Source: Saccharopolyspora phatthalungensis
GTDB lineage: Bacteria; Actinomycetota; Actinomycetes; Mycobacteriales; Pseudonocardiaceae
DNA: 64,000 bases
Reading direction: 5' to 3'
Assembly: GCF_014203395.1 (NCBI RefSeq)
Contig: NZ_JACHIW010000003.1
Span: forward strand, 206,887 to 270,886
Position numbers and translations under genes: made by a program. The notes under the pieces were generated by a model that ran no database searches, was not told the DNA's origin, and was given only the letters and a program-made list of their open reading frames with translations. Of the stretch, positions 15,060-64,000 are shown in pieces. Position 1 is the first letter of the stretch. The number at the start of each line of letters is the position of its first letter.

Positions 15060-16499
<1,440 letters not shown>

Positions 16500-16531
16500 G
16501 TTCGCAGGCGTGGCCGGAAGGGGTGTGACGC

Positions 16532-16555
16532 GGCCGGTGCGGTAGCGCACCGGCC
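16532..16555 (+). terminator. Hairpin terminator after rox
   Basis: A perfect inverted repeat, GGCCGGTGCG and CGCACCGGCC around a GTAG loop, begins 33 bases after the rox stop. It has no T-tract, as is common in actinomycetes. Confidence 0.7.
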
Positions 16556-16642
16556 CAGTCCCCGGATCGACGGTGTCCGGTCACAGACCTCTGGCCCGTA
16601 CATCACCGGACCGGCGCTTCGCGACTTGCGTACGGGGGCAGT

Positions 16643-16679
16643 GAGTCCTTTTGGGCAGCCACAGCTACCCAAAAGACTC
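16643..16679. terminator. Second stem-loop in the rox / giant gene A gap
   Basis: The GAGTC-C-TTTTGGG arm pairs with CCCAAAAGACTC with one bulged base, and the inner loop contains AGC/GCT. It can fold on either strand and may be a terminator or transcript stabiliser. Confidence 0.55.
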
Positions 16680-16795
16680 GTGCCTGCGGACCTGCGCGCC
16701 TCCGGATGAGCACAGGAGGGCCCTTTTGTTGGGTTTTGAGAAACGGCACACGCAAAATCATTGCGCGTGTCGGGGGTGCCTGGTTCAAACGGGCG

Positions 16796-16812
16796 GTATG
16801 GCTGGTTCATAC
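16796..16812 (+). promoter_or_regulatory. Palindromic motif shared upstream of giant genes A and C
   Basis: GTATGGCTGGTTCATAC has GTATG/CATAC arms and is followed by TACC. It is repeated with only two changes at 56877-56893 before giant gene C. In both cases it sits 60-76 bases before the start codon, where an operator or promoter element would be expected. No other part of the two upstream regions is as conserved. Confidence 0.6.
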
Positions 16813-16871
16813 TACCCAGCGCGGTAATCGTTTCGGCCAGGTTTCGAACTTGATCTGATTGGGTGGACCGT

Positions 16872-19800
16872 GTGTCTGTGTTGGTGCCGGAGGAGGTGCG
16901 GCGGCTTTTTCAGGTGTTGACTGGTGAGGATATGACGGATGCGGATGAGGATGCGTTGTTTGCGGTGGCGGAAGGGTTGGAGTCGGGTGCGGCGACGGTG
17001 GAGGAGCTGGGTCCGGTGGTGCGGGAGGTGGTGGGTCGGGTACGGGGTGGGTTTTCGGGCAAGGCGGCGGATCGGTTTGCGGAGCGGTTGGCGGGGTTTG
17101 GTCCGGTTTTGGAGTCGGGTGGTGTGGGGTTGCGGGAGTTGGCGGGGTTTGTGCGGGGTTTGGCGTTGCAGGTGCAGTATTTGAAGTTTGTGACGGTGGG
17201 CGGGTTGGTGTTGCTGTTGGGGGAGGTGGCGTGGGCGGTGTCGATGGCGGGGCTGACGGCGGGGGCGAGTATGGCGTGGTTGGCGGCGCGGTTTGCGGTG
17301 ATGCGGTTTCTGTTGTCGCGGTGGTGGGGGCAGCTGTTTATGCGGCTGGCGGTGGCCCAGGTCGTGGGGATCGGGATGCAGTTGGTGGTGGAGGTGGGTG
17401 CGCAGGGTGCGCAGTTCGCGTTGGGGACACGGAAGAAGTGGGATGGGCAGCTGACGACCATGGCAGTGGGGGTGGGTTCGTTCAGCGCGTTGTTGGCGGT
17501 GCCGTTGTCGGCGTTGGGCAATGTGGTGGGTAATGCGATTACCAAGGTGTTGGTGCGGGGTTTGGGTGACAAGATCGATGCTGAGGTGTTGGCAGCGGCG
17601 GCGAAAAATGCTGCGGAGGAGCACGCGGTGCAGTATCCGTTGTCGTCGATGGCGAAGTTCGCCGATATGGTGTCCAAGAGTGTGGATGATTACGCGGGGA
17701 TGTCGGTGCGGGCGATGTGGGCGGCGCGGTTCGGTCACGGTCTGGGGGAGTCGCTGGAAGAGGGCTTGACCGAGATGTTCGGCGAGGCGGGGTATGGCGC
17801 GCTGAGTGGTCAGGGGGCGCAATGGAATCCCTTCTCGTTCACCGCGGGGTTGTCGGAGGCGGTAGGTTCGGGTATTGGCAACCTGGCGGGTCTGGCGATG
17901 CGTGGTGAGTTGGTTCCGGCGGGCCGGGCCCGGAATGCCGCCGACGGCGAGAAGGACTCCGCCACTGTAGACACCAATGCGTACACGACGGAGGAGCTGA
18001 AGACCGATTCCGCTTTGCAGCCGGGAGAAAAGTCCGGCTTCCTGAGCAGCCTGTCCGGTGCGGACTCCGAGGCGTCCAAGGTCGGCGCGTATGAGACGCG
18101 GCGGGACAACGCGCCGTTGCTATGGCGTGAGGGCGATGCGAATGCGCAGGCCGCGCTGTGGGATCAGAGCAGGCCGGGCACGCCGCCGCCACCCTACAGT
18201 CAGCCTCAGGACGAGGACCTCGTCCACAGCGATCCACCGGGTTCCGGTGGCGCTTCCAGGGAGGGCGATTCCCGTGCCGGTATGCCGCCGCCTGCATACG
18301 GTGCGGTTACTGGCGATGTCCATGCCGATGTCGAGTCGTCTGGTGTGGACGTTACACGGGAATACCGTGGCAGCGCATTGGTTTCTGACCACGTTGTCTC
18401 GGTTGGGGATTCCCGTACCGATTCGCCGCACCGCGACGACCGTCTCGTCGCCGAAACCTCCCAGGCGGATAGCCAAGAGGCTGTCGACGATGTGCAAGTG
18501 ACAGAGCCGCTGTTCCACGTGAATGACGCTGCTGTTCCTGAGGTGTCCGCCAGGGCGGATTCGGTTGCGGGGAATGCGGATTCGGCTCGTTTGAGCGATG
18601 GTGGGCCGCACGCGCAAATGCCGCCGGACCCGTCTGGGGCCATGGCTTCGGGTGATCCTGTGTTGGTTCCGGAGCCGGTGGGGTTACCTGCGGATGCGGT
18701 GCGGGTGTCGGTGCCGGCTGAGGTGGTTTCCAGTGCTGGGCTTGTGGGTCTGGTGCGTGGTCGGGCGGGGGATGTGGGTGTGGGTCCGGTGGTTTTGGTG
18801 TCGGGGGAGGGTGTGGGTGTTGCGGTGGCGTCGTCTGCTCAGTCGTCGCGGGTGGCGCGCGAGGTGGGGCGTGATGTTGTGGCGTTGATGCCGGGGAGTG
18901 GCTGGCGCGGTCCGCGGTGGATGCAGTTCGCTCCCGACGGTTCCCGTCCCCGCCCGTTGGGCGAGCCCGGCCGGATTGCGGCCTTGCCGCAGGTCGGCGG
19001 GGGGCGCTTCGGGCTGGATGATTTGGCGAGTTCGTCGACTGCGGTCCCCGGAAGCCCCGCCGAGGCTGTGGTTGCGGGACCGGGTGAGGCGGGGAGTGCT
19101 GCGACGGCGCCGGGTGCCGATTCCACGGCTGCCGGCACGCCTGAGTGGACGGAGTCGGATCTTCGTAGTGCGGTTGAACGGGCTCGGTCCTTGGGTGGGA
19201 ACCGTGATGTTGCGGTGGGGATCGTGCGGGGCACGCATGATGTGGTGGCGCTGGCGCGTGGAGATGCGGGTGTGCCGCTGGATGACGTGGTGGCTTTGGT
19301 CGCGGTGCGGGCTGATGCGGTCGGTCATGACGAGGCGGTGCGGTTTTCCCGGGAGTTGGCGGCCAGACTCGGTACGCAGGGGACGGGCTTGGGCGTTCGT
19401 GCGGGGGCGGGGCCGGATTCGCGGGCAGCGGCGAAGGAGTCCGAGGAGCTTGCGCGCGGCGAGCACGCCGGTGGACCCGAGGAGTCGGGTGTTCCGATGA
19501 CGTGGGGGTTTGATCCGGGCTTGGAGTCTGCGTTGGATTCGTTGGGTGTGGCGGGATGGTCGTGGGGTGGTGTGTCGAGGGACGGGGAGGAGGCAGGGCT
19601 GGCGGCTTTCGGCGTGGATGCGGGTGATCGTGGTGCTGATGGGGTGGATTCGGTCGGTGCGGGCAGTGGGCGTAAGCGGGGTCGTGAGGATGGTTCGGTC
19701 GATGAGGGCGCGGCGCGCCGGGCCGCGGGTCCGGAGGATTTCCCGGTTTTGCCGGATTCATTGGATGGTGCGGGTTGGTCGTGGGGTGTCGGTGATGTGC

Positions 19801-22800
19801 CGGGTGCGGATCCGTTGGATTTGGCGGCCAGGGCTGAAAATCTGGATTTGCTGGGGTTTGGTACGGACGCGGCGGTTTTCGGTGATGTCGGAGGTGCGGA
19901 TTTGATTGCTGGGGGTGCTGCATCGTGGTCGGTCGCACTCGGTGGCACGGAGGTGGATTCGGCACTGGAAGCGGTAGACACGGCCGAGAATGCGGCTAGC
20001 GTGGAGTCGTTGAAGGAGGCGGCGCGGGTGGAGGCGCGGCGTGCTCGTGATGCGGGTGAGCCCTACACCGGTGCGGAGTTGGGGAAGAGGCTCGGCAGGA
20101 GCAAGTGGTGGGGGCAGGCGCGGCTTGCGGAAATCAGAGGGGAGAGTGGTCCGGCACAACGTTCCTTGCAAGGTCCGGAGGGGGAGCGGTTGCGGGAGGC
20201 GGCGCGGGTGGAGGCGCGTCGTGCTCGGGAGGCCGGTGAGTCCTACACCGGTGTGGCGTTGGGGAAGAGGTTCGGGATGAGCGTGGCGTGGGGTAAGGAG
20301 CGGCTTGCGGAGATCAACTCTGTGGATGGCGTGGCCGGGCGGGCTGCGCAGGAACAAGAGCGGAAGTGGGCGCAGGAGCGGGAGGCGGGGCGGGTGGAGG
20401 CGCGTCGTGCTCGGGACGCGGGTGAGCCCTACACCGGTGCGGAGTTGGGTGAGAAGTTCGGGAAGAGCACGGCGTGGGGGGCGCGCCTGGTTGCGGAAAT
20501 CAGGGCTGAGGGTGATGCGGGACGGTCTGCTTCGCAGAGGACGGGGGAGCGGTTGCGGGAGGCGGCGCGGGTGGAGGCGCGTCGTGCCCGGGACGCGGGT
20601 GAACCCTACACCGGTGCCGCGTTGGGGGTGAAATTCGGAAAGGGTTCGACGTGGGGTGGGCTGCGGCTTATGGAAATCAAGGCCGATGGTCGTGCGAGCG
20701 GTACGGCTTTGCCGGAGCAGGTGCAGGGGCGGGGGCCGGATCCGCAGTCGGAAGTTCCGCTCTCCGAGGGGCCTGTGAGTAGAGGTCAGGCCGGTGGTAC
20801 GGCCACCGACCCGATTGATGATCTGGCCTGGTGGGGGCTTGGTCCGGCCGTCGAGTCCGCATTGGATTCGCCGGAGGTTGGGGGATGGTCGTCGGGTGAT
20901 GTGGCGGGGACGGGGTCGAATAACGCGGGATTGTTTGCTTTCGATGTGGACCTCGATCTGGACGCGGTTGGTCCTGGTGTTGGAGGGATGGGTTCGTTTG
21001 GTGAGAGTAGTGGGCGTGAGTGGGGTCGTGACGATGGTTCGGCCGACGAGGCTGTGGGGATCGGGCCCTCGGGTCGGCAGGGCTTCTCGACTTTGCCGGG
21101 CTTTGCGGGCGGTAGTGCGGCCGTTGGTGGCTTGTCGGAGGGGCCGTTGTCGTGGGGTGTTGATGAGGTGCCGGGTGATAGTGGCGGTTATCTGGATCCG
21201 GGTGGAGTGGGGTTGTTCGGGTTTGGGGTGAGCCTGGCTGATGGTGATGCTGGCGCACTTTCGACCGTTGAAGGTCCGGCGGAGTTGTCGGTGGGTTCCG
21301 GTGGCGTGGCGGGTTCGGTGCCGGAAGGGCCGGATGCGGCCGAGCGGTCGGAGCGTGCGGAGTTGTTGAGAGAGACGGCACGGGTGGAGGCGCGTCGTGC
21401 TCGTGACGCGGGTGAGCCCTACAGCGGTGTTGCGTTGGGGAAGAAGTTCGGGATGAGCCGGTCGTGGGGGGAGACACGACTTGCGGAGATCAAGAATGAG
21501 GGCGGTGCGAACCGGCAGACATTGCGGGAGCAGGAGTGGGCGGAGGAGCGAGAGGCGGCGCGGGTGGAGGCGCGTCGTGCTCGGGACGCGGGTGAGCCCT
21601 ACACCGGTCCAGCGTTGGGGAAGAAGTTCGGGAAGACCGATAGGTGGGGACGGGCCCGGCTTGATGAGATCAGGAGTGCGGGTGATGTGCCCTGGTCGGC
21701 TGGGAAGGGGGCGGAGGAGGAGCGGTTGCGGGAGGACGCGCGGGTGGAGGCGCGTCGTGCCCGGGACGCGGGTGAGCCCTACACCGGTCCAGCGTTGGGG
21801 AAGAAGTTCGGGATGAGCCGGTCGTGGGCGGATACACGACTTGCGGAAATCAAGGATGAGGTTAATGAAGTCCGGCGGGCCATGCGGGGAGGAGAGCAGG
21901 AGTGGGCGCGGGAGCGGGAGGCGGGGCGGGTGGAGGCGCGTCGTGCTCGGGACGACGGCGAGCCCTACTCCGCGGCCGCGTTGGGGAAGAGGTTCGGGAA
22001 GAGCAAGGCGTGGGGGCAGAAGCTACTTGAGGAAATCAAGCCTGAGGGTGGTGCGATCTGGTCGGCTGCGGGAGAGCGGCAGGCCGGGCAGGTGCGGGAG
22101 GCGGCGCGGGCGGAGGCGCGCCGTGCTCGTGATGCGGATGAGCCCTATAACGCTGTGGCGTTGGGTGAGGAGTTCGGGAAGAGCGAGATGTGGGGGCAGG
22201 AGCGACTTGCGGAAATCCGATCTGAGGGTGGTGCGCTCTTGTTGTCTGTGCGGGGGCGGGAGGGGGCCCGGGAGGCGGCGCGTGCGGAGGCGCGTCGTGC
22301 ACGTGATGCGGGTGAGCCCTACACCGGAGCGGCCTTGGGGGAGAAGTTCGGAAAGAGCGAAAAATGGGGGCAGAAGCGACTTGCGGAAATCAAGCCCGAG
22401 GATGGCAGCCGACCGGCCGTGCGCGGGCCGGAGAAGGAGCGGTTGCGGGAGGCGGCGCGGGCGGAGGCGCGTCGTGCTCGGGATGCGGGTGAGCCCTGCA
22501 CCGGTGCGGCCTTGGGAAGGAGGTTCGGAAACGGTGAGAGGTGGGGTCGGGAGCGGCTTCATGAGATCAGGAAGGAGACGAGTGGTTCTGCCGGTGGAGC
22601 CTCGGGTTCTGGGGGTGGTGTTCCGGCGGAGGGAGTCTCGTCGGTCGATGCGGCCGAGTGGGTGCAGTCGGGTGTTGAGTCGGGTGGTGTGGCGGGGTGG
22701 TCGGAGTCGGATTTGCGGAGGGAGGTCGAGTTGGCTCAGGTGGTGGGTGGATCACGTGAGGTGGCGATGGGGATTGTGCGAGGCACGCATGATGTGGTGG

Positions 22801-25800
22801 CGCTGGCGTGGGAGGACGCGCGTGTGTCGTTGGATGATGTGGTGGCTTTGGTTGCGGTGCGGGTAGAGGCGGAGGGACATGCTGCGGCGGTGCGGTTTTC
22901 CCGGGAACTGGCGAACCGACTTGGTACCCAGGGGTCGGGGTTGGCCATCCGTGCCGGTGCGGGGCCGGCTCCCCACGCGGCGGTGTTCGAGGTATCTGCG
23001 GCCGACGAGGGGCCCGGTGCTCCGATGACGAGGCGGATCGAACCGGCCGGGGCCGTCTCGGGTTCGATTGATGTCGCGGGGTGGTCGTCGGGTGCTGTGG
23101 CGGGTGCGGATTCATGGGATGGTGCGCCGAGTGCGGCGGCGGAAGACGCGGAAATGCTGGCTTTTGGTGCGGCTGATCGTGGCGTAGGGGGGTTGGGTTC
23201 GGTCGGCGCGGACACCGGGCGCAAGCGGCGTCGTGACGACGATGGTGCAGTCGATGAGGGTGCGGCACGAAGGCCCTCAGGTCCGCAGGATTTCCCGATT
23301 TTTCCGGAATTTGGGAAACCCGGCGACACGACGATCGAGGTAGCACCGGAGGTGATACACGCGGCCGAGGCGGTGGATACTACCGAGTCGTCGAAGGAGG
23401 AGGCTCGCGCCGAAGCGCGTCGTGCTCGTGACGCGGGGCAGCCCTATACCGCTGGGACGTTGGGGAACAGGTTCGGAAAGAGCTCGTCGTGGGGTTGGCG
23501 TCGGCTTGACGAGATCAGGGCCGAGGGTGGTGTGAGCCGGCTGGTTTCGCAGGGGCACGAGGCGGCGCGGGTAGAGGCGCGTCGTGCCCGGGACGCGGGT
23601 GAGCCCGACACCGGTCGCTCGTTGGGGAAGAAGTTCGGGCGGAGCGCGGCATGGGGTGCGCAGCGGCTTGCGGAAATCAGTACTGAGGGCGGTGTGAGCC
23701 GCTCCGATTTGAAGGGGCAGGATGCGGCGCGGGTGCGGGAGGCGGCGCGGGTGGAGGCACGTCGTGCTCTTGCCGAAGGAAAGCCCTACGGCGGTGAGGC
23801 GTTGGGGCAGCGGTTCGGGAAGAGCGGGTCATGGGGCAGGTCCCGGCTTGCGGAGCTCAGCGATGAGGGTAGTGCTGACCAGCCTGTTGCCGAGGTGCAG
23901 GGGCAGGATGCGGCGCGGGTGCGGGAGGCGGCGCGGGTGGAGGCATGTCGTGCTCGTGATGCTGGTGAGCCCTACAGCGGTGGGACGTTGGGAAAGAAGT
24001 TCGGAATGAGCGAAAGATGGGGTCGGGCGCGACTTAAGGAGATCAGAGGTGGGGATGGTGCGACCCCGGAGGCTGTGCGGGCGGAGGAGGGGGAGCGGTT
24101 GCGGGAGGCGGCGCGGGCGGAGGCGCGTCGTGCACGTGCTGCTGGTGAGCCCTACAGCGGTGGGACGTTGGGAAAGAAGTTCGGAAAGAGCGAAAGATGG
24201 GGGCGGGAGCGGCTTCGCGAGATCAGGGCGGCCTTCAGTGGTTCTGCTGGTCGTGCTTCGGATTCTGCGGGTAATGTGCTGGCGGAGGATGTCCCTTCGT
24301 TGGATGTGACTGCGGCTGAGCGGCCGCAGTCGGTTGTTGAGTCGGGCGGTGTAGCGGGTTGGACGGAGTCGGATCTGCGGAGAGAGGTTGAGTGGGCTCG
24401 GTTGGTGGGTGCGCAGCGTGATGCGGCCGTGGAGATTGTGCGGGGCACGCATGATGTGGTGAAGCTGGCGCGTGGGGATGCGGATGTGTCACTGGATGAC
24501 GTGGTGACACTGGTTGCGGCGAAGATCGACGAAGTTGGTCACGACGAGGCGAAGCAGTTTTCCCGCCAACTGGCGGCCAGAATCGGCACACCGGGGACCG
24601 CGTTTGCGATCCGTGCCGCAGCAGGACCCGATCCCCGGGCAGCGGCCGCGGTGTCCGAGGAGTCCGCGGGCAGCGCTTTGGTCGGCGACATGCCCGGCGG
24701 CCCGGCGGAGAGCCCATCGGGTTTTGGGTGGGGCGAGCTTCCGGCTGGTCGAACGGATGATGTGCTGATGACGGACTTTCCGGTGACAGGCACGAATGTG
24801 GTTGTGGCTGAAGGGTTCGCGGATGATCTGGGCGGCTTGTCTTTCCTTGGCGACCCGGAGTCGTGGTTCGTTGACCCGTTGAACGTCGGGAATTTCGGTC
24901 TTGGCTGGGATGAGGTTCAGGACGGTCGAACGGATGATGTGCTAGGGGTGGGCTTGTTCGGAGCGGGGGCGGATCCGCTTTCGATTGAATGGTTTGCGCA
25001 TGATTCGGGTGGATTGTCGTCGGTTGGGGCTGTGGGCGGTTCCGGGGTGGGTGGCCGTAGCAGGCACAAGAGGGCTCGTGTTGATGGCTCGGATAATGAG
25101 GGTGCCGAGTCTGAGCGTCCGTCCCGTCGTCGTGTGCGTCGGGCGGATTCGGCGAAGCGGAAGCGGGCGGCGGAGTTGGAGACAGTGTGGGCGGAGCTGC
25201 GTCGTGCCGGTGAGGCGGGTGAGTCTCACACCGGGGCGACATTGGGGAAGAAGTTCGGAAAGAGTGCGACGTGGGGCTTTGCGCGGCTTAGGGAGTTCCG
25301 GGCAAGTCATGGGGGGACGAGTCGGGCGGATGTGGTGAAGCGGAAGCGGGCGGCGGTGTGGGCGGAGATGCGTCGTGCTCGTGACGCGGGTACGCCCCAT
25401 ACCGGTGAGTCGTTGGGGAAGAAGTTCGGGAAGGGTGTGTCGTGGGGCTGTGCGCGGCTTGCGGAGTTCCGGGCGAGCGAGGGAGGTTTGAGTCGGGCGG
25501 AGTTGTCGCAGCGGGATCGGGACGCGAACTTGGAGACAGTGTGGGCGGAGCTGCGACGTGCTGATGAGGCGGGTGAGTCCCACACCGGTGCGACTTTGGG
25601 GGCCAAGTTCGGAAAGAGCGCGTCGTGGGGTGTGCAGCGGCTTGCGGAGTTCAGGGTGCGGGCAGGGGAGGGCGGCCCGGCGGATGTGGAGCAGAAATGG
25701 GCGGCGGTGTGGGCGGAAGTGCGTCGTGCTCGTGGCGCGGGCGAGCCTCACACGGGCAAGTCGTTGGGGGTTAAGTTCGGAATGAGCCCGACTTGGGGGC

Positions 25801-25910
25801 TGCAGCGGCTTGCTGAATTCAGGAACGCGGAGAGCGCATTGGCGTCTGGGAGTGGTGTGCCCACGGAAGACGCGTCGGCCTCTGGTGCGGTTTGCCCGGA
25901 ATGTCCGTGA
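16872..25910 (+). CDS. Giant gene A: WXG100-like N-terminus plus 20 tandem HTH-like repeats
   Basis: About 3012 residues. Residues 1-355 are a WXG100-like/CpnT-N-like domain with hydrophobic helices (around 106-150 and 160-230), as in actinobacterial polymorphic toxins. Next come a disordered linker with PPPPY and a shared module (about 605-705; GRDVVALMPGSG). Helical modules with GTHDVVALA lie near 758-855, 1942-2037 and 2495-2593. Four arrays hold 4, 7, 5 and 4 repeats (about 1046-1277, 1493-1902, 2173-2456, 2759-2993). Each repeat has EARRARDAGEPYTG, then LGKKFGKS-xx-WG-xx-RLAEI, which looks like a helix-turn-helix. Basic patches such as GRKRGREDGS precede the arrays. I chose GTG 16872 by alignment with B and C; GTG 16863 is also possible. 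The coding strand is strongly G- and T-rich. No catalytic domain or signal peptide is seen; function is unknown. Confidence 0.85.
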   Translation: MSVLVPEEVRRLFQVLTGEDMTDADEDALFAVAEGLESGAATVEELGPVVREVVGRVRGGFSGKAADRFAERLAGFGPVLESGGVGLRELAGFVRGLALQVQYLKFVTVGGLVLLLGEVAWAVSMAGLTAGASMAWLAARFAVMRFLLSRWWGQLFMRLAVAQVVGIGMQLVVEVGAQGAQFALGTRKKWDGQLTTMAVGVGSFSALLAVPLSALGNVVGNAITKVLVRGLGDKIDAEVLAAAAKNAAEEHAVQYPLSSMAKFADMVSKSVDDYAGMSVRAMWAARFGHGLGESLEEGLTEMFGEAGYGALSGQGAQWNPFSFTAGLSEAVGSGIGNLAGLAMRGELVPAGRARNAADGEKDSATVDTNAYTTEELKTDSALQPGEKSGFLSSLSGADSEASKVGAYETRRDNAPLLWREGDANAQAALWDQSRPGTPPPPYSQPQDEDLVHSDPPGSGGASREGDSRAGMPPPAYGAVTGDVHADVESSGVDVTREYRGSALVSDHVVSVGDSRTDSPHRDDRLVAETSQADSQEAVDDVQVTEPLFHVNDAAVPEVSARADSVAGNADSARLSDGGPHAQMPPDPSGAMASGDPVLVPEPVGLPADAVRVSVPAEVVSSAGLVGLVRGRAGDVGVGPVVLVSGEGVGVAVASSAQSSRVAREVGRDVVALMPGSGWRGPRWMQFAPDGSRPRPLGEPGRIAALPQVGGGRFGLDDLASSSTAVPGSPAEAVVAGPGEAGSAATAPGADSTAAGTPEWTESDLRSAVERARSLGGNRDVAVGIVRGTHDVVALARGDAGVPLDDVVALVAVRADAVGHDEAVRFSRELAARLGTQGTGLGVRAGAGPDSRAAAKESEELARGEHAGGPEESGVPMTWGFDPGLESALDSLGVAGWSWGGVSRDGEEAGLAAFGVDAGDRGADGVDSVGAGSGRKRGREDGSVDEGAARRAAGPEDFPVLPDSLDGAGWSWGVGDVPGADPLDLAARAENLDLLGFGTDAAVFGDVGGADLIAGGAASWSVALGGTEVDSALEAVDTAENAASVESLKEAARVEARRARDAGEPYTGAELGKRLGRSKWWGQARLAEIRGESGPAQRSLQGPEGERLREAARVEARRAREAGESYTGVALGKRFGMSVAWGKERLAEINSVDGVAGRAAQEQERKWAQEREAGRVEARRARDAGEPYTGAELGEKFGKSTAWGARLVAEIRAEGDAGRSASQRTGERLREAARVEARRARDAGEPYTGAALGVKFGKGSTWGGLRLMEIKADGRASGTALPEQVQGRGPDPQSEVPLSEGPVSRGQAGGTATDPIDDLAWWGLGPAVESALDSPEVGGWSSGDVAGTGSNNAGLFAFDVDLDLDAVGPGVGGMGSFGESSGREWGRDDGSADEAVGIGPSGRQGFSTLPGFAGGSAAVGGLSEGPLSWGVDEVPGDSGGYLDPGGVGLFGFGVSLADGDAGALSTVEGPAELSVGSGGVAGSVPEGPDAAERSERAELLRETARVEARRARDAGEPYSGVALGKKFGMSRSWGETRLAEIKNEGGANRQTLREQEWAEEREAARVEARRARDAGEPYTGPALGKKFGKTDRWGRARLDEIRSAGDVPWSAGKGAEEERLREDARVEARRARDAGEPYTGPALGKKFGMSRSWADTRLAEIKDEVNEVRRAMRGGEQEWAREREAGRVEARRARDDGEPYSAAALGKRFGKSKAWGQKLLEEIKPEGGAIWSAAGERQAGQVREAARAEARRARDADEPYNAVALGEEFGKSEMWGQERLAEIRSEGGALLLSVRGREGAREAARAEARRARDAGEPYTGAALGEKFGKSEKWGQKRLAEIKPEDGSRPAVRGPEKERLREAARAEARRARDAGEPCTGAALGRRFGNGERWGRERLHEIRKETSGSAGGASGSGGGVPAEGVSSVDAAEWVQSGVESGGVAGWSESDLRREVELAQVVGGSREVAMGIVRGTHDVVALAWEDARVSLDDVVALVAVRVEAEGHAAAVRFSRELANRLGTQGSGLAIRAGAGPAPHAAVFEVSAADEGPGAPMTRRIEPAGAVSGSIDVAGWSSGAVAGADSWDGAPSAAAEDAEMLAFGAADRGVGGLGSVGADTGRKRRRDDDGAVDEGAARRPSGPQDFPIFPEFGKPGDTTIEVAPEVIHAAEAVDTTESSKEEARAEARRARDAGQPYTAGTLGNRFGKSSSWGWRRLDEIRAEGGVSRLVSQGHEAARVEARRARDAGEPDTGRSLGKKFGRSAAWGAQRLAEISTEGGVSRSDLKGQDAARVREAARVEARRALAEGKPYGGEALGQRFGKSGSWGRSRLAELSDEGSADQPVAEVQGQDAARVREAARVEACRARDAGEPYSGGTLGKKFGMSERWGRARLKEIRGGDGATPEAVRAEEGERLREAARAEARRARAAGEPYSGGTLGKKFGKSERWGRERLREIRAAFSGSAGRASDSAGNVLAEDVPSLDVTAAERPQSVVESGGVAGWTESDLRREVEWARLVGAQRDAAVEIVRGTHDVVKLARGDADVSLDDVVTLVAAKIDEVGHDEAKQFSRQLAARIGTPGTAFAIRAAAGPDPRAAAAVSEESAGSALVGDMPGGPAESPSGFGWGELPAGRTDDVLMTDFPVTGTNVVVAEGFADDLGGLSFLGDPESWFVDPLNVGNFGLGWDEVQDGRTDDVLGVGLFGAGADPLSIEWFAHDSGGLSSVGAVGGSGVGGRSRHKRARVDGSDNEGAESERPSRRRVRRADSAKRKRAAELETVWAELRRAGEAGESHTGATLGKKFGKSATWGFARLREFRASHGGTSRADVVKRKRAAVWAEMRRARDAGTPHTGESLGKKFGKGVSWGCARLAEFRASEGGLSRAELSQRDRDANLETVWAELRRADEAGESHTGATLGAKFGKSASWGVQRLAEFRVRAGEGGPADVEQKWAAVWAEVRRARGAGEPHTGKSLGVKFGMSPTWGLQRLAEFRNAESALASGSGVPTEDASASGAVCPECP
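20006..20700 (+). repeat. HTH-like repeat array A1 (4 units)
   Basis: Four in-frame tandem units, about 58-62 codons each, with a conserved 42-codon core. The variable dipeptide between the conserved Ser (or Gly) and Trp reads KW, VA, TA, ST in order. Confidence 0.85.
21349..22575 (+). repeat. HTH-like repeat array A2 (7 units)
   Basis: Seven in-frame tandem units. The variable dipeptide before the conserved Trp reads RS, DR, RS, KA, EM, EK, ER. The framework EARRARDAGEPYTG and LGKKFG is nearly constant at DNA level, so neighbouring units could recombine. Confidence 0.85.
23389..24237 (+). repeat. HTH-like repeat array A3 (5 units)
   Basis: Five in-frame tandem units. The variable dipeptide reads SS, AA, GS, ER, ER. 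The last two units share most of their core sequence at DNA level. Confidence 0.85.
25147..25850 (+). repeat. HTH-like repeat array A4 (4 units, divergent class)
   Basis: Four in-frame units of a distinct subclass: each begins with VWAE(L/M/V)RRA, has HTG in place of YTG, and ends LAEF or LREF in place of LAEI. The variable dipeptide reads AT, VS, AS, PT. The array is preceded by a Lys/Arg-rich stretch (SRRRVRR, KRKRAA). Confidence 0.8.
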
Positions 25911-26073
25911 TGTCCGCTCAGAGTTGCTAGTGAAGCTCGCGCTGCTCCAGCGGCCGCGGGCCGACCCGCGTGCGCTGCTGCGTGAGCAGCGCAGGGTCCT
26001 GGAGACGATCAGCGCGGGCCTGAGCGCTCAGCAGCAGCGGTCGGTCTGGAACGAGGGGGAACACTGTGGCTAA
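25899..26073 (+). pseudogene. PadR-family regulator C-terminal remnant
   Basis: A reading frame overlapping and following the stop of giant gene A encodes DVRSELLVKLALLQRPRADP and then ALLREQRRVLE. This is the typical C-terminal effector segment of PadR-family regulators. The winged-helix part is missing, and giant gene A's 3' end occupies its place. This suggests a rearrangement that joined A to a pre-existing gene. Confidence 0.55.
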
Positions 26074-28150
26074 AGCCGTCACGACCTCGGTGCGAACGGT
26101 GTGTACGTACTGCGGGGTTGGATGCGGGGTCGTGCTGGACGTGGCGGACTCTGACGGAACGCCTCGGGCGGTGAAGGCGTCCGGGGATAAGTCGCATCCG
26201 GCGAACGCGGGCCGGTTGTGCACCAAGGGTGCGACGAGCGCGGAGTTGTTCGCGGCTAGCGGGAGGTTGCGCACAGCGCTGGTGCGGCCGGAACGGGGCG
26301 CGGAACTGGCGCCGCAGCCGGTGGACGAGGTGATAATCGAGACTGCGCGGCGGTTGCGGGACATTCTGGACAAAGATGGCCCGGACGCGGTGGCGTTCTA
26401 CGTGTCCGGGCAGATGAGTCTGGAGGCTCAGTATCTGGCGAACAAGCTGGCCAAGGGCTACGTGCGCACCAACCAGATCGAGTCGAATTCCCGGTTGTGC
26501 ATGGCCAGTGCGGGCACCGGGTACAAGCTCTCGCTCGGGGCGGACGGCCCGCCGGGTTCGTACGAGGACTTCGATCACGCGGATGTGTTCTTCGTGATCG
26601 GCGCGAACATGGCTGACTGCCACCCGATTCTGTTCCTGCGGTTGATGGACCGGGTCAAGGCGGGCTCGAAGCTGATCGTGGTGGATCCCCGCCGCACGGC
26701 CACCGCCGACAAGGCCGACCTGTTCCTCCAGATCAAGCCGGGTACGGATTTGGCACTACTGAACGGATTGCTGCACCTCCTGGTGGCGAACGGGCAGATC
26801 GACACGGAGTTCATCGCGGAAACCACCGAGGGATGGGAGGAAATGCCCGCGTTCCTGGCCGACTACCCGGCCGCACGGGTCGCGGAGATCACCGGTATCC
26901 CGGAGGCCGACATCTGCCGGGCAGCGGAATGGAGTGGTGCGGCTGGCAACTGGATGAGTTGCTGGACGATGGGGTTGAACCAGAGCACCCACGGCACGTA
27001 GAACACCAACGCCCTGATCAACCTGCACCTGGCGACCGGCGCGATCTGCCGGGCGGGCAGTGGGCCGTTCTCGCTGACCGGACAGCCCAACGCGATGGGC
27101 GGCCGGGAGATGGGCTACATGGGACCGGGCCTGCCGGGCCAGCGGTCGGTGCTCGTGGCCGAGGACCGCGCCTACATGGAGAACCTGTGGGGCCTGCCCT
27201 CCGGCACGCTGCGCACCGAAACCCGGCGCGGCACGGTGGAGGTGTTCTCCCAGCTCGCCGAGGGCTCGATCAAGGCATGTTGGATCATCTGCACTAACCC
27301 GGTGGCCACGGTCGCCAACCGCAAGACCGTGATCACCGGGCTTGAGGCCGCCTCGGCCACCGGGACCTGAAAACCCTGCTGCGCCCGGACAACAAGGGCG
27401 AACTGGCCAAATGGGCCTGGGGCCGTCAAGCCGTTGACGTCGCCGCCGAATACCCCGTTCGCGCCACCGCGCAGGACTGGGCCGATGTGTTCAAGAGGCT
27501 GCAACCCCGGGTACTCGATCTCCTCCAGTCCGCTGACCAATCCCGGCCGGCTCAGCCTCACCGTCTCGGTGATCCGCTACGACAGCCCCAGCGGGAGACC
27601 GCGCAAGGGAGTCTGCTCCGCCCTCCTTGCCGATGCGCCCACTGCGACCATCTTCCCGGTGCTGGTCCGGCCCGCCGAGCATTTCGGCCCACCCGCCGAC
27701 ACGGCAACACCGATGATCATGGTCGGGCCTGGCACCGGCATCGCCCCCTTCCTCGGCTTCCTAGACCACCGCCGAGCCCGCGGCGACCACGCCCCCAATT
27801 GGCTGTTCTTCGGGGAACAACACCAAGCCACCGACTTCTACTACCAGGACGAACTCGCCAGTCTGCGCCGCGACGGCATCCTCACCGACCTCGACCTGGC
27901 GTTCTCCCGCGACCAGCGCACCAAGATCTACGTCCAGGACCGGATGCGCCAACAAGGAGCCAAGCTGTGGTCCTGGCTGAAGAACGGCGCCCGCCTCTAC
28001 GTCTGCGGCGACGCCACCCGCATGGCCAAAGATGTCGACCGAGCGCTCCGCGAAATCATCGCCCAGCACGGCAACCTGAGCCCCGCCGACGCCGGCGCCT
28101 ATGTCAAGCAACTCAGCATCGACAAGCGCTACGTCCGCGACGTCTACTGA
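26066..28150 (+). pseudogene. Decayed nitrate reductase / sulfite reductase flavoprotein fusion
   Basis: The first 311 codons are the N-terminus of a molybdopterin oxidoreductase of the assimilatory nitrate reductase type, with a 4Fe-4S cysteine motif (CTYCGVGCG) and GRLCTKG. An in-frame TAG at 26999-27001 interrupts NQSTHGT-stop-NTNALINLHL, where relatives usually have Trp. The frame then continues (SGPFSLTGQPNAMGGREMGY) to about 27369, after which much of the protein is missing. The region 27370-28150 encodes the flavin/NADPH end of a CysJ-like reductase (YSISSSPLTNPGR, GPGTGIAPFLGF, YVCGDATRMAKDV, ending KRYVRDVY), with at least one more frameshift near 27510. An intact fusion would be about 1350-1400 residues, so more than 2 kb has been lost. 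Confidence 0.85.
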
Positions 28151-45001: not shown

Positions 45002-55918
<10,917 letters not shown>

Positions 55919-58205: not shown

Positions 58206-61200
58206 CCACTGAACCGGAGAAGGGCTCGGCATCGGTGGGCTCGGATGTTCCGCTGACGTCGGACATCTTGCCTGCTGGCTCCGGCATTGAAAAGGCGCCG
58301 CTGGGTGGTGGTGTGTCCGGTGCACGCGAAAATGGCTCGATAGTGAAGGAAACGGCGGCTGGTTTGTCTCCGTCCCCGGACATGCCGCCGGATAGCCCGG
58401 CTCACGGGGCCTCGGCACCGGATACCGATGCCGTGGTGGGGCAGGACTCCAAGGCCAGCGTGCGTGAGGCGCGGAACGACAACGCGCCGTTGTCGTGGCA
58501 CGGGGGTGGTGCGATTGCGCCGGCTGGGCTGCGGGGCCAGGACAGGCCGGGCACGCCGTCGCCCCCTTACAGCTCGCCTCAGGCAGATGACCTCTTCGGC
58601 GATTCCCCGGGTACCGATGATGCGGCTCGGGAGGGGGGTTCCCGTGCCGCTATGCCGCCTGCGTATAGCGCGGTTGCGGGCGATGTCCGCGCTGATGTCG
58701 CATCGTCTGGTGTGGACAGAGCCGGTGAGTACCGGGGCAACTCACTGGGTTCTGACAGCGGTGCCACGGTGGGGGATTCCCCTTCCGATTCGGCGCACCG
58801 CGACTACTATCATGCCGCCGAAACCCCCCAAGTGGACAGCCAAAAGGCCGTAGACGATGTGCGAGTGGTGGAGCCGCAATTCCAGGCGGGCGACTCTTCC
58901 ACGGAGAATTCGTCGAACGGCGCCGCTGAGGTGTCCGGTCAGTCCTCGGATGTCGTGACTCCGGGGATGCGTCATCCGGTGGCTGGGCCGGTTGCGGGTA
59001 CCGGCGGCGAAGCCATAGTGCCGGGACACGGGCCGGTGTGGGATGGCCCGGCTGTTCCTGGAGCGTTTGCCGGGGCGGATTCGCTTGCGGGGGATGCGGA
59101 TGTGGCTCGCTTGGGCGATGGTGCGCGCCAATGGGCAACGCCGCCGGAGTCGTCCGGGGTGGTGGGTTCGGGTGGTCCGGGGTTCGGTGCGGGGCCGGTA
59201 GGGATGCCAGCGGATGCGGCGCGGGTGTCGGTGCCGGCGGAGGTGGTGTCCAACGGTGGGGTTGTGGGGTTTGTGCTTGGCCGGGCGGCGGATGTGGGTG
59301 CTCCGGTGGTGTTGGTGGCGGGTGAGGATTCGGGTGCTCCGGTGGTGTCGTCGGGGCAGGCGTCGCGGGTGGCGCGCGAGGTGGGGCGTGATGTTGTCGC
59401 GTTGATGCCGGGGAGTGGCCGGCGTGATCCGCGGTGGATGCGGTTCGCTCCGGACGGCTCCCGTCCCCGCCCGGTCGCTGGGCCCGGCCGGACTACGACC
59501 CCGCAGCAGGCCGGCGAAGGGCGCGTCGGGCTGGATGGTGTGGCGAAGCCGTCGGCCGCGGTTCCCGAAGGTCCCGTGGTTGCGGGACCGACCGAGGCAG
59601 GAGGTGCTGAGACGGCATCGGTTGATGCTGATTCCACGGCTACCGGCGCGGCTGAGTCGCGCATGCCGAGCCATGCCGGGGAACAACCGGATTCGAGCAG
59701 CGTGGCTGAGTGGACGGAGTCGGATCTCCGGCGGGAGGTTGAGCGGGCTCGGTCGGTGGGTGGGCCGCGTGAGGCCGCGCTGGAGATCGTGCGGGGCACG
59801 CACGATGTGTTGGCGCTGGCTCGGGGCGACGCGGCTGTGTCGCTTGATGATGTGGTGGCTTTGGTTGCGGTGCGGGTTGATGCGATGGGGCGTGCTGGGG
59901 CGGTCCGCTTTTCCCGAAAGTTGGCGGACAAACTTGGTACGCAAGGGACAGGGTTGGATATTCGTGCCGGGGCGGGGCCGGATCCCCATTCGGAGGTTCC
60001 GGTGTCCGAGGAATCGGTGGGCAGCGAACAGGTTGGTGGTCTGAGCGCTGAGTCGGTGGATATCCCCATGGCGTGGGGGTTGGATCCGACCGCCGCCGAG
60101 TGGGCGGATGGATTCGGGGCGTGGTCGTTTGATCCGGCGGCCGTTGAGCAGACCTTGGGTCCTGGGTGGGATGTGCTGGAGCCTACGGTGAACGCCGAGG
60201 GGGGCGGGTCGGAGGGCGTGTCGGGGATGGATGGTGAGCGGTCGCGGTTGGTTGCTGAGTTGGGTGAGTTGGTGGCTGTGTTGCGGCGGCTGCTGGCGGG
60301 TGCGTCGCAGGGTTATTTGCCCGGGTTGCGGGGGCGGGTTGAGCATTGGTCGCAGACGTTGGCTCGCGGCGGGTTTGATGGCGTGGACGTGGTGGCGTTG
60401 CGGAAGCGGGTGAGCGATGCGGGGGCGTTGGTGGGGCGGTTGCGTCGCGATGGGTTGGTTGATGCCGCCGCCGGTGATGGTGGTGTGGGGGTCTCGGAGA
60501 TCGGCGTGATTGGCGGTGGGTCCGTTGATACCGGGGAGGCGGTGGTTGCGCGTGTGGATGCGGCTGATCGCGGTGTGGGCGCGGTGGGTTCGGTGGGTGA
60601 AGGCGAAAGTCGGAAGCGGGGCCGTTCGGGAGATTCGTCGGATGAGGGTGCGGTACGGGTACGTCGGTCGGTGGGATCCGGTGAGGCGGCGGTGGGCCCG
60701 GAGCCGGAGGCGGTGGACGCGGCCGGGGTCGAAGACCCGGCGCTGAACGAGGCGGGGCGGGCGGAGGCGCGTCGTGCCCGCGACGCGGGCCAGCCCTACA
60801 GCCAAGGGGCGTTGGGCAAGAAGTTCGGAAAGAGCAAGCAATGGGCTCGGCGACGACTTGCGGAGATCAGCGGTGAGGGCGGGGCGAGCCGGTCGGATTT
60901 GGAAGAGCGGTTGCGGGAGGAAGGGCGGGCGGAGGCGCGTCGTGCTCGTGACGCAGGTCAGCCCTACACCAGCGCGGCGCTGGGGGAAAAGTTCCAGAAG
61001 GGTGCGAAGTGGGGGTTGACGCGGCTTGCGGAAGTCGACCGAGAGGTGGGTGAGGGCTGGGCGACTTCGGCGGAGGGGTCGCGGGAAACGGTGCGGGTGG
61101 AGGCGAATCGTGGTTCCGATGCGGACGATGCTAATCGTGCTGAGGAACTGGGGAAGAAGTTCGGCAAGGGCAGGACGCGGGGTCAGGCGCGGGTTGCGGA

Positions 61201-64000
61201 GATCGGCGGTGAGGATGGCGAGAGCCGGTCGGCCAAGGCGGAGCGGTTACGGGAAGCGGGGCGTGCGGAGGCGCGACGCGCTCTCGCCGAGGGCAAGCCG
61301 CACACCGGTAGAACGTTGGCGGAGCTGTTCGGCAAGAGCATGGACTGGGGGAAGCTTAGGCTAGTCGAAGTCAAGGGTGAGAGCGGTGTGAGCCGGTTGG
61401 ATTTGGCGGAGCGGTTGCGGGAGGCGGCTCGTGTGGAGGCGCGGCGCGCTCGTGACGCGGGTGAGTTTTATTCCGGCGCGGCGTTGGGGACGAAGTTCGG
61501 CAAGAGCTCTGATTGGGGCCTCCGACGGCTTCGGGAGGTAAAGAACGAGGTGGGTAGTTCTGCCGGAAATGCTTCGGATTCAGGGGGTGATCTCGCGACG
61601 GAGGATGTCGCGTCAGGGCGTGGGATGGAGTCGATTGACCCGGGGCCGCAGGCGGACTCCCCGACTTTGCCCGAACTTTCGGACAGCGGTGCGGCCGGAC
61701 GTATCGCCGCTGACTCGGCGGATGAGGGGTGGTCCTGGTGGCCTGGGTGGGATGTTGGAGCAGCGGCAGGTGTGGGTGGCCTGGATCGGGGGAGCGGCGA
61801 ACATCTGAATGTGGCTGAAATCGGGTTGTCGGGGGCTGCCGACGCCGCTGCTCGTGGTGTCGGAGAAATGGATTTGATCACGTTGGAGGCGGGTTTTCCT
61901 GGCGGTGCAGCCTCCGGTTCTGCGGGCGGTGTGTCGATGGGGGGTGGCCCGTCGACGAATGTGGCTTCGAATGAGTGGTCGCAGACGGGTGTTGGGTCGG
62001 TTGATGCGGCGGGATGGTCGGAATCGAAATTGCGGGTGGAGGTCGAGTGGGCGCGGTTGGTGAATGGGTCGCGTGATGTCGCGGCGGGGATCGTGCAGGG
62101 CACGCACGAGGTGTTGGCCCTGGCCCGTGGGGATGCGGGTGTGTCGTTGGATGACGTGGTGGCCCTGGTTTCGGTGCGGGTGGATGAGGTGGGGCGTGAT
62201 GAGGCGGTGCGGTTTTCCCGGGAGTTGGCGGCCAGGCTTGGTACGCAAGGGACGGGGCTGGGTATTCGTGCTGGAGCGGGTCCGGATCCCCAGCCGGAGG
62301 TTCCGGCATTGGAGGAATCCGTGGCTGCCGAACCGGCGGACGGCCTGGCGTCGGGTGCTTTTGATCCGGGCGTTGCGGCTGAGTTCGATCCACTGGATGT
62401 TGGGGGGTGGTCACGGGGTGAAGTGGCGGGTGTGGCGCCGCGGGGTGGTGTGCCGGGGGCGGGGTCGGATGATGCTGGGTTGTTGGGGTTTAGTGCGGAC
62501 GTGGCTGACCGTGGTGCCGGGGAGTTGGGTTCGGTCGGTGAAAGCAGCGGCCGTAAGCGGGGTCGCGAGGATGGTTCGGTGGATGAGGGTGCGGCGCGCA
62601 GGGCCTCAGGTCCGCAGGGTTTCCCGGTTTGGCCGGAATTTGGAGGGGACAGTGCGTCGTGGGGTGTTGATGATGTGCCGGATGCGGCTGCTTTGGATCC
62701 GGCGGCTAGCGGCGGGTATCTGAATCCGGATGAATTGGGATTCTTGGGTTTTGGTGCGGATCCGGGTTTGAGTGATGTCCTAGGAGGGGATTCGTCGATC
62801 CCCGAAGGTGCTGTGCCGTTGTCGGTGGAGGCCGAGGGCGCAGCAGTGGACCCGCTATTGGAAGCGGTAGACCCGGCCGAGAATGTGCGGAGTGCGGGGG
62901 CGTCGAAGGAGGCGGCGCGGTCGGAGGCGCGTCGTGCTCGTGCCGCGGGCGAGCCCTATACCGGTGCGGCGTTGGGGAAGAAGTTCGGGAAGAGCACGTC
63001 GTGGGGTTCGCAGCGGCTTGTGGAAATCAAGGTCGAGGATGGTGAGCCTCGGTCCGATTCGAAAACGCAGGAGGGGGAGCGGTTGCGGGAGGCGGGGCGT
63101 GCGGAGGCGCGTCGTGCTCGGGACGCGGGCGAGCCTTATACCGGTGTCGGGTTGGGGAAGAAGTTCGGGAAGAGCCAGGCGTGGGGTAGGGACCGGCTTG
63201 CGGAAATCAAGGCTGCGGATGGTGTGACCCAGCGGCCTTTTCCGGAACAGGAGCAGGAGTGGGAGCGGGAGCAGGAGGCGGCGCGTGCGGAGGCGCGTCG
63301 TGCTCGGGACGCGGGCGAGCCTTATACCGGTGTCGCGTTGGGGAAGAAGTTCGGGAAGAGCAAGGCGTGGGGTTGGGACCGGCTTGCGGAAATCAAGGCT
63401 GCGGATGGTGTGACCCAGCGGGCTGTTCCGGAACAGGAGCAGGAGTGGGAGCGGGAGCGGGAGGCGGGGCGGGTGGAGGCGCGTCGTGCGCGTGATGCGG
63501 GGGAGCCTTATACCGGTGTCGGGTTGGGGAAGAAGTTCGGGAGAAGCGACACGTGGGGGAAGTCTCGGCTTGCGGAAATCACGGCTGAAGATGGCGCGAT
63601 CCAGCGGGTTGTGCGGGAACATGAGCGTGGTTGGGCGCGGGAGCGGGAGGCGGGGCGGGTGGAGGCGCGTCGTGCTCGTAATGCGGGGGAGCCTTATAGC
63701 GCTGCGGCGTTGGGGAAGAAGTTCGGGAAGAGCAAGGCGTGGGGTAGGGACCGGCTTGCGGAAATCACGGCTGAGGGCGGCGCGACCCAGCGGGCTGTAC
63801 GAGAACAGGAGCGGGAATGGGAGCGGGAGCGGGAGGCGGGGCGGGTGGAGGCGCGTCGCGCGCGTGATGCGGGGGAGCCTTATACCGGTGTCGGGTTGGG
63901 GAAGAAGTTCGGGAGAAGCCACGCGTGGGGGAAGTCCCGGCTTGCGGAAATCACGGCTGAAGATGGCGCGATCCAGCGGGTTGTGCCGGAACAGGAGCGT
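56954..64000 (+). CDS. Giant gene C (partial): WXG100-like N-terminus plus at least 11 HTH-like repeats
   Basis: The reading frame is open from GTG 56954 (GGGAG 7 bases upstream) to the window end, 2349 codons, so the 3' end is missing. Residues 1-365 match the B chassis, almost identically from codon 85. A linker with PPY motifs and the shared module GRDVVALMPGSG follow. GTHDVLALARGD helical modules are at nt 59710-59997 and 62014-62298, and a coiled helical stretch (ELVAVLRRLLAGASQGYLPG) is near 60250. Basic patches are ESRKRGRSGDS and SGRKRGREDGS. Two arrays of HTH-like units occupy nt 60745-61560 (five) and 62896 onward (six so far). The architecture equals gene A. It is divergent from B across 1035 bases. 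Function is unknown; see findings. Confidence 0.85.
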   Translation, partial: MSLMVPEEVRRLFQVLTGEDMTDADEDALFAVAAALESGAATVESLAPVVVDVVGRVRGGFSGKAADRFAQRLDAFGPMLESGSVGLRELAEFVRNLALQVQYLKFVTVGGLLLLVAEIAWAVAMAGPTGGASMAWLAARFAVMRLLLTRWWGQLFMRLAMAQIVGIGLQVVMDAGAQGLQFALGTRKKWDAAMSEMAVGVGSFSGLLAVPLSALGNVVGNAITKVLVRGLGDKIDAEVLAAAARQVAEEHAEQYPVASMARFADVVAKNLEDYTGMSVRAMWVARFGHGLGESLEEGLTEMLGEAGYGAISGQGAQWNPFSFTAGVSEAIGSGIGNLAGLAVRGELIPAGRARDTGEKDSTSTDTDTDTAEESTTETGIQTSEKPGFAETVSEKPSPPKDMPDVQSRAPAPDSEKMATEPEKGSASVGSDVPLTSDILPAGSGIEKAPLGGGVSGARENGSIVKETAAGLSPSPDMPPDSPAHGASAPDTDAVVGQDSKASVREARNDNAPLSWHGGGAIAPAGLRGQDRPGTPSPPYSSPQADDLFGDSPGTDDAAREGGSRAAMPPAYSAVAGDVRADVASSGVDRAGEYRGNSLGSDSGATVGDSPSDSAHRDYYHAAETPQVDSQKAVDDVRVVEPQFQAGDSSTENSSNGAAEVSGQSSDVVTPGMRHPVAGPVAGTGGEAIVPGHGPVWDGPAVPGAFAGADSLAGDADVARLGDGARQWATPPESSGVVGSGGPGFGAGPVGMPADAARVSVPAEVVSNGGVVGFVLGRAADVGAPVVLVAGEDSGAPVVSSGQASRVAREVGRDVVALMPGSGRRDPRWMRFAPDGSRPRPVAGPGRTTTPQQAGEGRVGLDGVAKPSAAVPEGPVVAGPTEAGGAETASVDADSTATGAAESRMPSHAGEQPDSSSVAEWTESDLRREVERARSVGGPREAALEIVRGTHDVLALARGDAAVSLDDVVALVAVRVDAMGRAGAVRFSRKLADKLGTQGTGLDIRAGAGPDPHSEVPVSEESVGSEQVGGLSAESVDIPMAWGLDPTAAEWADGFGAWSFDPAAVEQTLGPGWDVLEPTVNAEGGGSEGVSGMDGERSRLVAELGELVAVLRRLLAGASQGYLPGLRGRVEHWSQTLARGGFDGVDVVALRKRVSDAGALVGRLRRDGLVDAAAGDGGVGVSEIGVIGGGSVDTGEAVVARVDAADRGVGAVGSVGEGESRKRGRSGDSSDEGAVRVRRSVGSGEAAVGPEPEAVDAAGVEDPALNEAGRAEARRARDAGQPYSQGALGKKFGKSKQWARRRLAEISGEGGASRSDLEERLREEGRAEARRARDAGQPYTSAALGEKFQKGAKWGLTRLAEVDREVGEGWATSAEGSRETVRVEANRGSDADDANRAEELGKKFGKGRTRGQARVAEIGGEDGESRSAKAERLREAGRAEARRALAEGKPHTGRTLAELFGKSMDWGKLRLVEVKGESGVSRLDLAERLREAARVEARRARDAGEFYSGAALGTKFGKSSDWGLRRLREVKNEVGSSAGNASDSGGDLATEDVASGRGMESIDPGPQADSPTLPELSDSGAAGRIAADSADEGWSWWPGWDVGAAAGVGGLDRGSGEHLNVAEIGLSGAADAAARGVGEMDLITLEAGFPGGAASGSAGGVSMGGGPSTNVASNEWSQTGVGSVDAAGWSESKLRVEVEWARLVNGSRDVAAGIVQGTHEVLALARGDAGVSLDDVVALVSVRVDEVGRDEAVRFSRELAARLGTQGTGLGIRAGAGPDPQPEVPALEESVAAEPADGLASGAFDPGVAAEFDPLDVGGWSRGEVAGVAPRGGVPGAGSDDAGLLGFSADVADRGAGELGSVGESSGRKRGREDGSVDEGAARRASGPQGFPVWPEFGGDSASWGVDDVPDAAALDPAASGGYLNPDELGFLGFGADPGLSDVLGGDSSIPEGAVPLSVEAEGAAVDPLLEAVDPAENVRSAGASKEAARSEARRARAAGEPYTGAALGKKFGKSTSWGSQRLVEIKVEDGEPRSDSKTQEGERLREAGRAEARRARDAGEPYTGVGLGKKFGKSQAWGRDRLAEIKAADGVTQRPFPEQEQEWEREQEAARAEARRARDAGEPYTGVALGKKFGKSKAWGWDRLAEIKAADGVTQRAVPEQEQEWEREREAGRVEARRARDAGEPYTGVGLGKKFGRSDTWGKSRLAEITAEDGAIQRVVREHERGWAREREAGRVEARRARNAGEPYSAAALGKKFGKSKAWGRDRLAEITAEGGATQRAVREQEREWEREREAGRVEARRARDAGEPYTGVGLGKKFGRSHAWGKSRLAEITAEDGAIQRVVPEQER
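60745..61560 (+). repeat. HTH-like repeat array C1 (5 units)
   Basis: Five in-frame units, more diverged than in the other arrays. The dipeptide before the conserved Trp reads KQ, AK, RT, MD, SD. Unit 3 has lost the Trp (Arg instead). Confidence 0.8.
62896..64000 (+). repeat. HTH-like repeat array C2 (6 units, continues beyond window)
   Basis: Six in-frame units. The last five have an exact 186-base (62-codon) period, with the GAGGCGCG landmark at 63104, 63290, 63476, 63662 and 63848. The dipeptides read TS, QA, KA, DT, KA, HA. Confidence 0.88.

Follow-up and report, generated by a model that had tools for sequence, protein, structure and literature searches.

Genes A and C of Saccharopolyspora phatthalungensis, found in a 64,000-nucleotide stretch of contig NZ_JACHIW010000003.1 (positions 206,887 to 270,886, here called the window), belong, as judged from their sequences, to a family of giant proteins that was expanded inside this one genome and in which a WXG-type head is followed by long arrays of a repeated unit. 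The predicted fold of this unit is a helix-turn-helix (HTH), and the variation among copies peaks at HTH positions 12, 13, 16 and 17, a location that is reported here for the first time. These positions are the usual base-contact sites of the recognition helix. Compared with the rival explanations discussed below, the one that best accounts for the whole set of observations is that of diversified DNA-reader arrays on a secretion-type chassis. A probability of roughly 0.5 may be given to this package, and a lower one to the strict chain of all its steps.

The first-pass annotation of this DNA had described genes A and C as a toxin-type head followed by 20 and at least 11 repeats, respectively. 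This observation is confirmed, and the interpretation attached to it, that of modular DNA-binding effectors, is partly supported. Both heads match the WXG100_2 family; a repeat profile finds 20 copies in gene A, arranged in blocks of 4, 7, 5 and 4, and at least 11 copies are visible in gene C, which is cut by the contig end. The features of both genes are as follows.

16863 to 25910, forward strand: gene A, an open frame of 3015 codons without the stop, with a WXG100_2-type head and then four HTH-like repeat blocks
16804 to 16874, forward strand: upstream stretch common to the paralogues, TTCATACTA ... GTGTC start region
16938 to 17294, forward strand: WXG100_2 domain, gene A residues 26-144 (PF25547, 31.3 bits, cut-off 27)
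20013 to 20687, forward strand: gene A block 1, 4 repeats (repeat starts at residues 1051-1232)
21369 to 22577, forward strand: gene A block 2, 7 repeats (repeat starts at residues 1503-1862; the first two repeats were modelled)
23394 to 24233, forward strand: gene A block 3, 5 repeats (repeat starts at residues 2178-2414)
25176 to 25829, forward strand: gene A block 4, 4 repeats of the HTGxxLGxKFG subtype (repeat starts at residues 2772-2946), with 26 residues between its end and the stop
56951 (approximate start) to 64000, forward strand: gene C, with a gene A-type head (PF25547, WXG100_2, 42.3 bits, cut-off 27), open at the window end, which is the contig end
60746 to 61549, forward strand: gene C block 1, 5 repeats by the repeat profile, two of which have a degenerate core motif
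62906 to 63961, forward strand: gene C block 2, 6 repeats seen by the repeat profile, four of which were modelled

The alignment of 39 upstream stretches from paralogues of the same genome revealed that TCATACTA and a GTGTC start region are part of a conserved stretch, which suggests a common control of the family. Since the GTG at 16872, already chosen by the first-pass annotation, fits this common start region, it is more likely than 16863 to be the start of gene A.

The extent of the family was studied by searching the assembly of the same organism (8.54 Mb, six contigs) with the first 400 residues. The head was found in 40 places. In 33 of these the identity is 77-100% and in six it is 62-66%; the remaining place is a fragment with an internal stop. 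The sequences of 39 of them were read, five of which run into contig ends. The repeat profile detected 622 repeats in 33 of these 39 paralogues, with 1 to 62 copies each, the largest arrays being those of g39 (62, open at the contig end), g32 (61) and g19 (54). The repeats form blocks of 1 to 14 units, with a conserved core of about 44 residues and linkers that mostly measure 12-18 residues; within blocks, the start-to-start period has peaks at 56 and 60 residues (mostly 56-62, median 58, all paralogues considered). Neighbouring repeats are more similar to each other than random pairs (0.68 vs 0.57, and 0.23 vs 0.12 at the four most variable columns), as expected from arrays that would have grown by local duplication. 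Because it recurs in so many paralogues and the codon changes of its core show purifying selection, the repeat is more than a chance resemblance.

The variability of the columns was evaluated on the 586 gapless copies among 624 repeats. The most variable ones are columns 35, 36, 39 and 40 (3.42, 3.40, 3.59 and 3.24 bits, column 47 tying with the last at 3.24), which are HTH positions 12, 13, 16 and 17, respectively; E11, R14, A15, L27, F31 and W37 are nearly constant (95-99%). The combinations of four letters found at the contact columns are distinct in 536 of 620 cases. Codons were compared among 519 unique DNA sequences out of 521 full copies. In crude counts that follow the edges of minimum spanning trees, ignore transition bias and recombination, and set apart multi-base codon changes (578 at the four columns and 913 over the remaining core), the nonsynonymous to synonymous ratio relative to a neutral expectation (omega) was 1.44 in the four columns vs 0.30 in the rest of the core over 475 edges, 1.72 vs 0.30 over 189 edges and 2.33 vs 0.41 over 41 edges. 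Among close copies (41 tree edges), nonsynonymous (N) and synonymous (S) changes were 48:4 at the four columns vs 139:73 elsewhere; these positions were named after the repeats had been inspected, so no chance probability is attached to them. For the helix-2 columns 25 and 29, the crude omega is 1.41. It thus seems somewhat likely, from the codon changes, that selection drives the repeats towards different contacts.

The HTH reading was evaluated with both structure and sequence comparisons. Two AlphaFold2 models, one of the first two repeats of gene A block 2 and the other of four repeats of gene C block 2, predict with moderate confidence three helices per repeat (2-17, 24-30 and 35-48), that is, three-helix units and not a plain helical solenoid, the outcome that the first-pass annotation had named as contrary to its reading. 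The fold-search rows obtained with these models are mostly HTH or winged-helix proteins, although weak and not significant. The profile check proposed by the same annotation gave no family for the window, as none of the 51 repeats compared matched an HTH family above the cut-off, and the match of gene A to birA_repr_reg was weak (E 0.11). The related units weakly match five HTH families, while shuffled controls match none; the alignment used (A5) contains 32 of 41 non-redundant units, chosen by eye as the most regular, and the control was made by shuffling the same 32. The two sets of repeats, the own ones and these related units, are homologous with 98.8% probability. Single copies of a similar unit, expected in other actinobacterial proteins, do occur: four of the five single-copy proteins scanned, all DUF2637 (PF10935), scored above the cut-off and one was weaker. 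The case is built on structure prediction, related units and the selection pattern, with no clear family match of the window repeats; no match to a known family with another role turned up either, and an HTH fold is very probable.

The search for relatives in other genomes also retrieved the whole architecture. Two loci of Saccharopolyspora spinosa were the only named relatives found by a pattern search. The repeat was present at E 0.001 or better in at least 16 of the 61 genomes searched, own genome included, and at 1e-8 or better in at least 10 of 249 genomes of the family (up to 118 and 29 candidates were scored per genome, respectively). In a related genus, G033 encodes an 11,795-residue protein whose head is of the type of our genome (66% identity over 353 residues) and which carries seven strong copies of the repeat at residues 9298-9690. 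The same protein has three tandem Xre-type HTHs recognized as HTH_3 (4.8e-30; L080:6948-10847), two further ones detected with a profile built from the first three, and a Gln_amidase domain about 260 residues before its end (27.8 bits, cut-off 24.1). A toxin domain and HTH arrays of two kinds are thus united in one giant with a gene A-type head. The G033 giant also has two copies of an inter-block stretch, about 90 residues long, which 31 of the 39 paralogues carry in 1-10 copies. Other giants with repeat units were seen in G004, G008, G014 and G018, where the available stretches begin or stop inside these proteins.

The repeats probably bind DNA. One could also imagine that the units bind proteins or RNA, for instance that they are diversified modules by which kin adhere to or recognize each other: variable outer residues would also suit a protein interface, and the winged-helix RNA binder SelB is among the fold-search rows. 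Nevertheless, the repeat carries a net positive charge (+2.4 on average), the variable columns are those of the recognition-helix face and HTH_3 domains are found in the G033 giant, which makes this alternative quite improbable. If the arrays are DNA readers, the middle part of the protein would be a string of three-helix HTH domains on flexible linkers. The third helix of each of them would probably enter the major groove and read a small number of base pairs with the residues at HTH positions 12, 13, 16 and 17, and the contact residues would have been diversified by selection from repeat to repeat. Each protein would then have its own combination of contacts and grip DNA by many weak, partly specific contacts acting together. 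The protein would most likely be exported or displayed as the DNA-binding part of a toxin-type system, and might grip or block the DNA of competitors or extracellular DNA, although this target is a guess.

Several observations weigh against such a scenario. The window repeats matched no sequence family in Pfam or the Protein Data Bank. The helix-1 columns 7 (omega 1.37) and 10 (1.79) evolve as fast as the four contact columns, column 43 has an omega of 1.02, and column 34, which is HTH position 11, is not variable. No toxin domain was recognized in gene A by Pfam or NCBIfam and, as a C-terminal toxin domain is the criterion for that class, gene A is not classed as a polymorphic toxin. In the DNA behind 34 paralogues (up to 2.6 kb, less where the fetched DNA stopped), no gene was common to more than one pair of non-neighbouring paralogues; those common to a single pair were found for g23-g29, g11-g35, g16-g22 and, weakly, g30-g35. 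Finally, in the sister species G006, where at least 25 head matches were found among up to 30 candidates scored (20 with a frame of more than 1000 residues), 12 of the 25 matching proteins were read: a charged helical repeat of 51 residues, unrelated to the HTH-like one, is present in three of them, two others have a unit of about 310 residues and another one has a unit of 85 residues. HTH-like units are also present in G006, seven in total, spread over five of the 12 proteins with one or two in each. Different arrays on one head type indicate that the head tolerates varied arrays, in agreement with a role as a spacer or in display. One of these proteins, G006j (L110), has 20 copies of the 51-residue repeat, with the core LEASKKQGPLTDEQEKELAELRPKAQQWQKKKE, on a gene A-type head.

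These data from G006 are an argument for a different scenario, in which the array serves as an interchangeable spacer or stalk joining the head to the C-terminal part, made of easy-folding HTH-like units that were multiplied and whose outer residues drift under little constraint. The six paralogues out of 39 that lack repeats (g08, g09, g11, g23, g24 and g38) and the wide differences in block and linker lengths among paralogues point in the same direction. Yet relaxed drift should yield an omega close to 1 without preference for any face, whereas the crude omega exceeds 1 along a single face of the third helix and stays at 0.06-0.29 in other surface columns of helix 1 (13, 14, 16 and 17). Moreover, textbook HTH_3 domains also occur in the G033 giant, and many arrays end the protein and leave nothing to space: in nine of the paralogues that have a stop, 2-35 residues follow the last repeat. 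A mere spacer thus appears fairly unlikely.

The place where these proteins would act is the other point on which the interpretations diverge. Heads of this kind occur on substrates of type VII (ESX) secretion as well as on polymorphic toxins. The chances that the giants are exported or displayed can be considered about even. The genome encodes two EccB genes of ESX systems, one of them (C1:10892-12259) about 6 kb from paralogue g26 at a contig end; they only indicate that ESX systems exist in this organism. Alternatively, the proteins could remain intracellular, as DNA binders that are anchored in the membrane or belong to the nucleoid, and be involved in chromosome tethering or silencing, in the manner of the DUF2637 proteins. 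The hydrophobic segments of the DUF2637 proteins that carry a single homologous HTH, the long hydrophobic stretches seen by eye in the gene A head and the failure to find a shared immunity gene in the 34 downstream stretches, some of them short, would agree with this. The WXG100_2 type of the head speaks against it, as do the toxin domains on relatives with a gene A-type head: the Gln_amidase of G033 and a Scabin-like ADP-ribosyltransferase domain (PF22596, 27.8 bits, cut-off 27) at the end of g38. The latter was the single toxin domain found by Pfam in 13 pieces outside the repeats from 12 paralogues. Diversifying contacts would also be odd in a housekeeping role, and an intracellular function is accordingly regarded as unlikely. 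Among the paralogues without repeats, g11 is an open frame of 13,644 residues with a gene A-type head, two large pieces of which matched no Pfam family above the cut-off.

The array-only genes could also be decaying polymorphic toxins that lost their C-terminal domain. The C-termini of the paralogues stop at many different points, one of the 40 places is broken, and the gene adjoining gene A looks broken too: the open frames at 26066-27370 of the window, directly behind gene A and in different frames, look by eye like one split gene, which we take to be a molybdopterin oxidoreductase and which appears broken. Nevertheless, no family sequence was detected in another frame in the 34 downstream stretches, except for paralogues that are neighbours, short fragments at g10 and g28, and a fragment of 271 residues that lies 1.8 kb behind g37. 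In addition, the omega of 0.3 in the core reflects upkeep. Decay is therefore highly improbable.

A conserved basic motif precedes some of the blocks. In gene A it is found in three places.

19671 to 19691, forward strand: RKRGRED, ahead of block 1
23220 to 23240, forward strand: RKRRRDD, ahead of block 3
25065 to 25085, forward strand: HKRARVD, ahead of block 4

The strict pattern RKRxR has 39 sites in 21 paralogues, and the next repeat lies at a median distance of 40 residues (37 of 39 within 150), but only 40 of 142 blocks have such a site within 250 residues. Since three positions are fixed as K/R, R and R/K in the pattern itself, the low N:S ratios there (1:5, 0:5 and 0:13) are partly built in; the first R, which is not fixed in this way, is kept in 36 of 39 sites (2:11). 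N exceeds S at 14 of the 16 other positions counted. When the motif was masked and the sites were located by their flanks, 47 of 64 spanning matches, in 27 paralogues, were basic at the K, R and R positions. The looser pattern K[KR]x[KR] occurs 64 times in the non-repeat parts (26 of 33 proteins) vs 6.4 times in shuffles of them, in a test that ignores shared ancestry. The sequence of RKRxR would suit a nuclear signal or, equally, a basic DNA-binding patch.

Among known systems, transcription activator-like (TAL) effectors have repeats of 33-35 residues that build up a superhelix of hairpins. The arrays described here resemble TAL effectors and TALE-like proteins (RipTAL, BurrH/Bat, MOrTL) in their long tandem repeats, in the secreted-type bacterial protein that carries them and in the few fixed variable positions that would set DNA specificity. 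They differ in their period (mostly 56-62 residues), their predicted three-helix HTH units and their four main variable columns instead of two, and any code is hypothetical here. One could go further and propose that nature holds, besides TALEs and without relation to them, another class of modular DNA readers, in which HTH arrays with a four-residue code sit on an ESX-type chassis and which, in its boldest form, would enter eukaryotic cells and reach the nucleus via RKRxR as actinomycete TALE analogues; this proposal is a long shot. Multi-zinc-finger proteins likewise put many small DNA-reading domains with diversified contact residues on linkers. The likeness concerns the way of working alone, as the arrays here are of the HTH type, without metal site, bacterial and far larger.

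Other comparisons are closer to the head or to the unit. Polymorphic toxins share the WXG-type head, the many paralogues per genome and, in the relatives g38 and G033, toxin domains. The DUF2637 proteins have one homologous unit, found by profile, in about 300-430 residues, without WXG100_2 head or array. The G033 giant shares both the head and homologous repeats and differs by HTH_3 and Gln_amidase, both absent from gene A. In the parts of the text available, Zhang et al. 2012 (PMC3482391) name a Tox-HTH domain with the motif RxxY, R, [ST], report Ntox38 with nine copies in S. spinosa and describe C-terminal toxin domains, not HTH arrays, as well as toxin nucleases without the DNA-binding domain array known from restriction systems. 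The Tox-HTH motif is not found as such in our repeats, which are set apart from that domain by this motif description only. In the PubMed Central literature searched, including the available parts of PMC3482391 and PMC5472282, no account of a WXG-type head combined with an HTH array was found.

A third member of the family was overlooked by the first-pass annotation, which also lacked the 40 places in the genome and the location of the variable residues at particular HTH positions.

45002 to 55918, reverse strand: gene B, with a head of the gene A/C type and 3638 codons
51701 to 52012, reverse strand: the only two repeats of gene B by the repeat profile, the second one weak

The array genes of the window also have a strong skew of G over C (0.28-0.40, at 16000-26000 and 60000-64000) and a third-position GC content of 0.71-0.73, below that of the neighbouring genes.

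The novelty of this family depends on its DNA-reading part: if the arrays were spacers, these would be just a variant of the known giant toxin-type proteins. If they are DNA readers, a single genome would hold a DNA-reading domain in more than 600 natural versions, arrayed and with contact residues apparently varied by selection, as an HTH counterpart of the zinc-finger and TALE arrays. They would provide a data set for learning the rules of HTH recognition and would mean that a toxin-type system can act on DNA by a new, non-enzymatic route.
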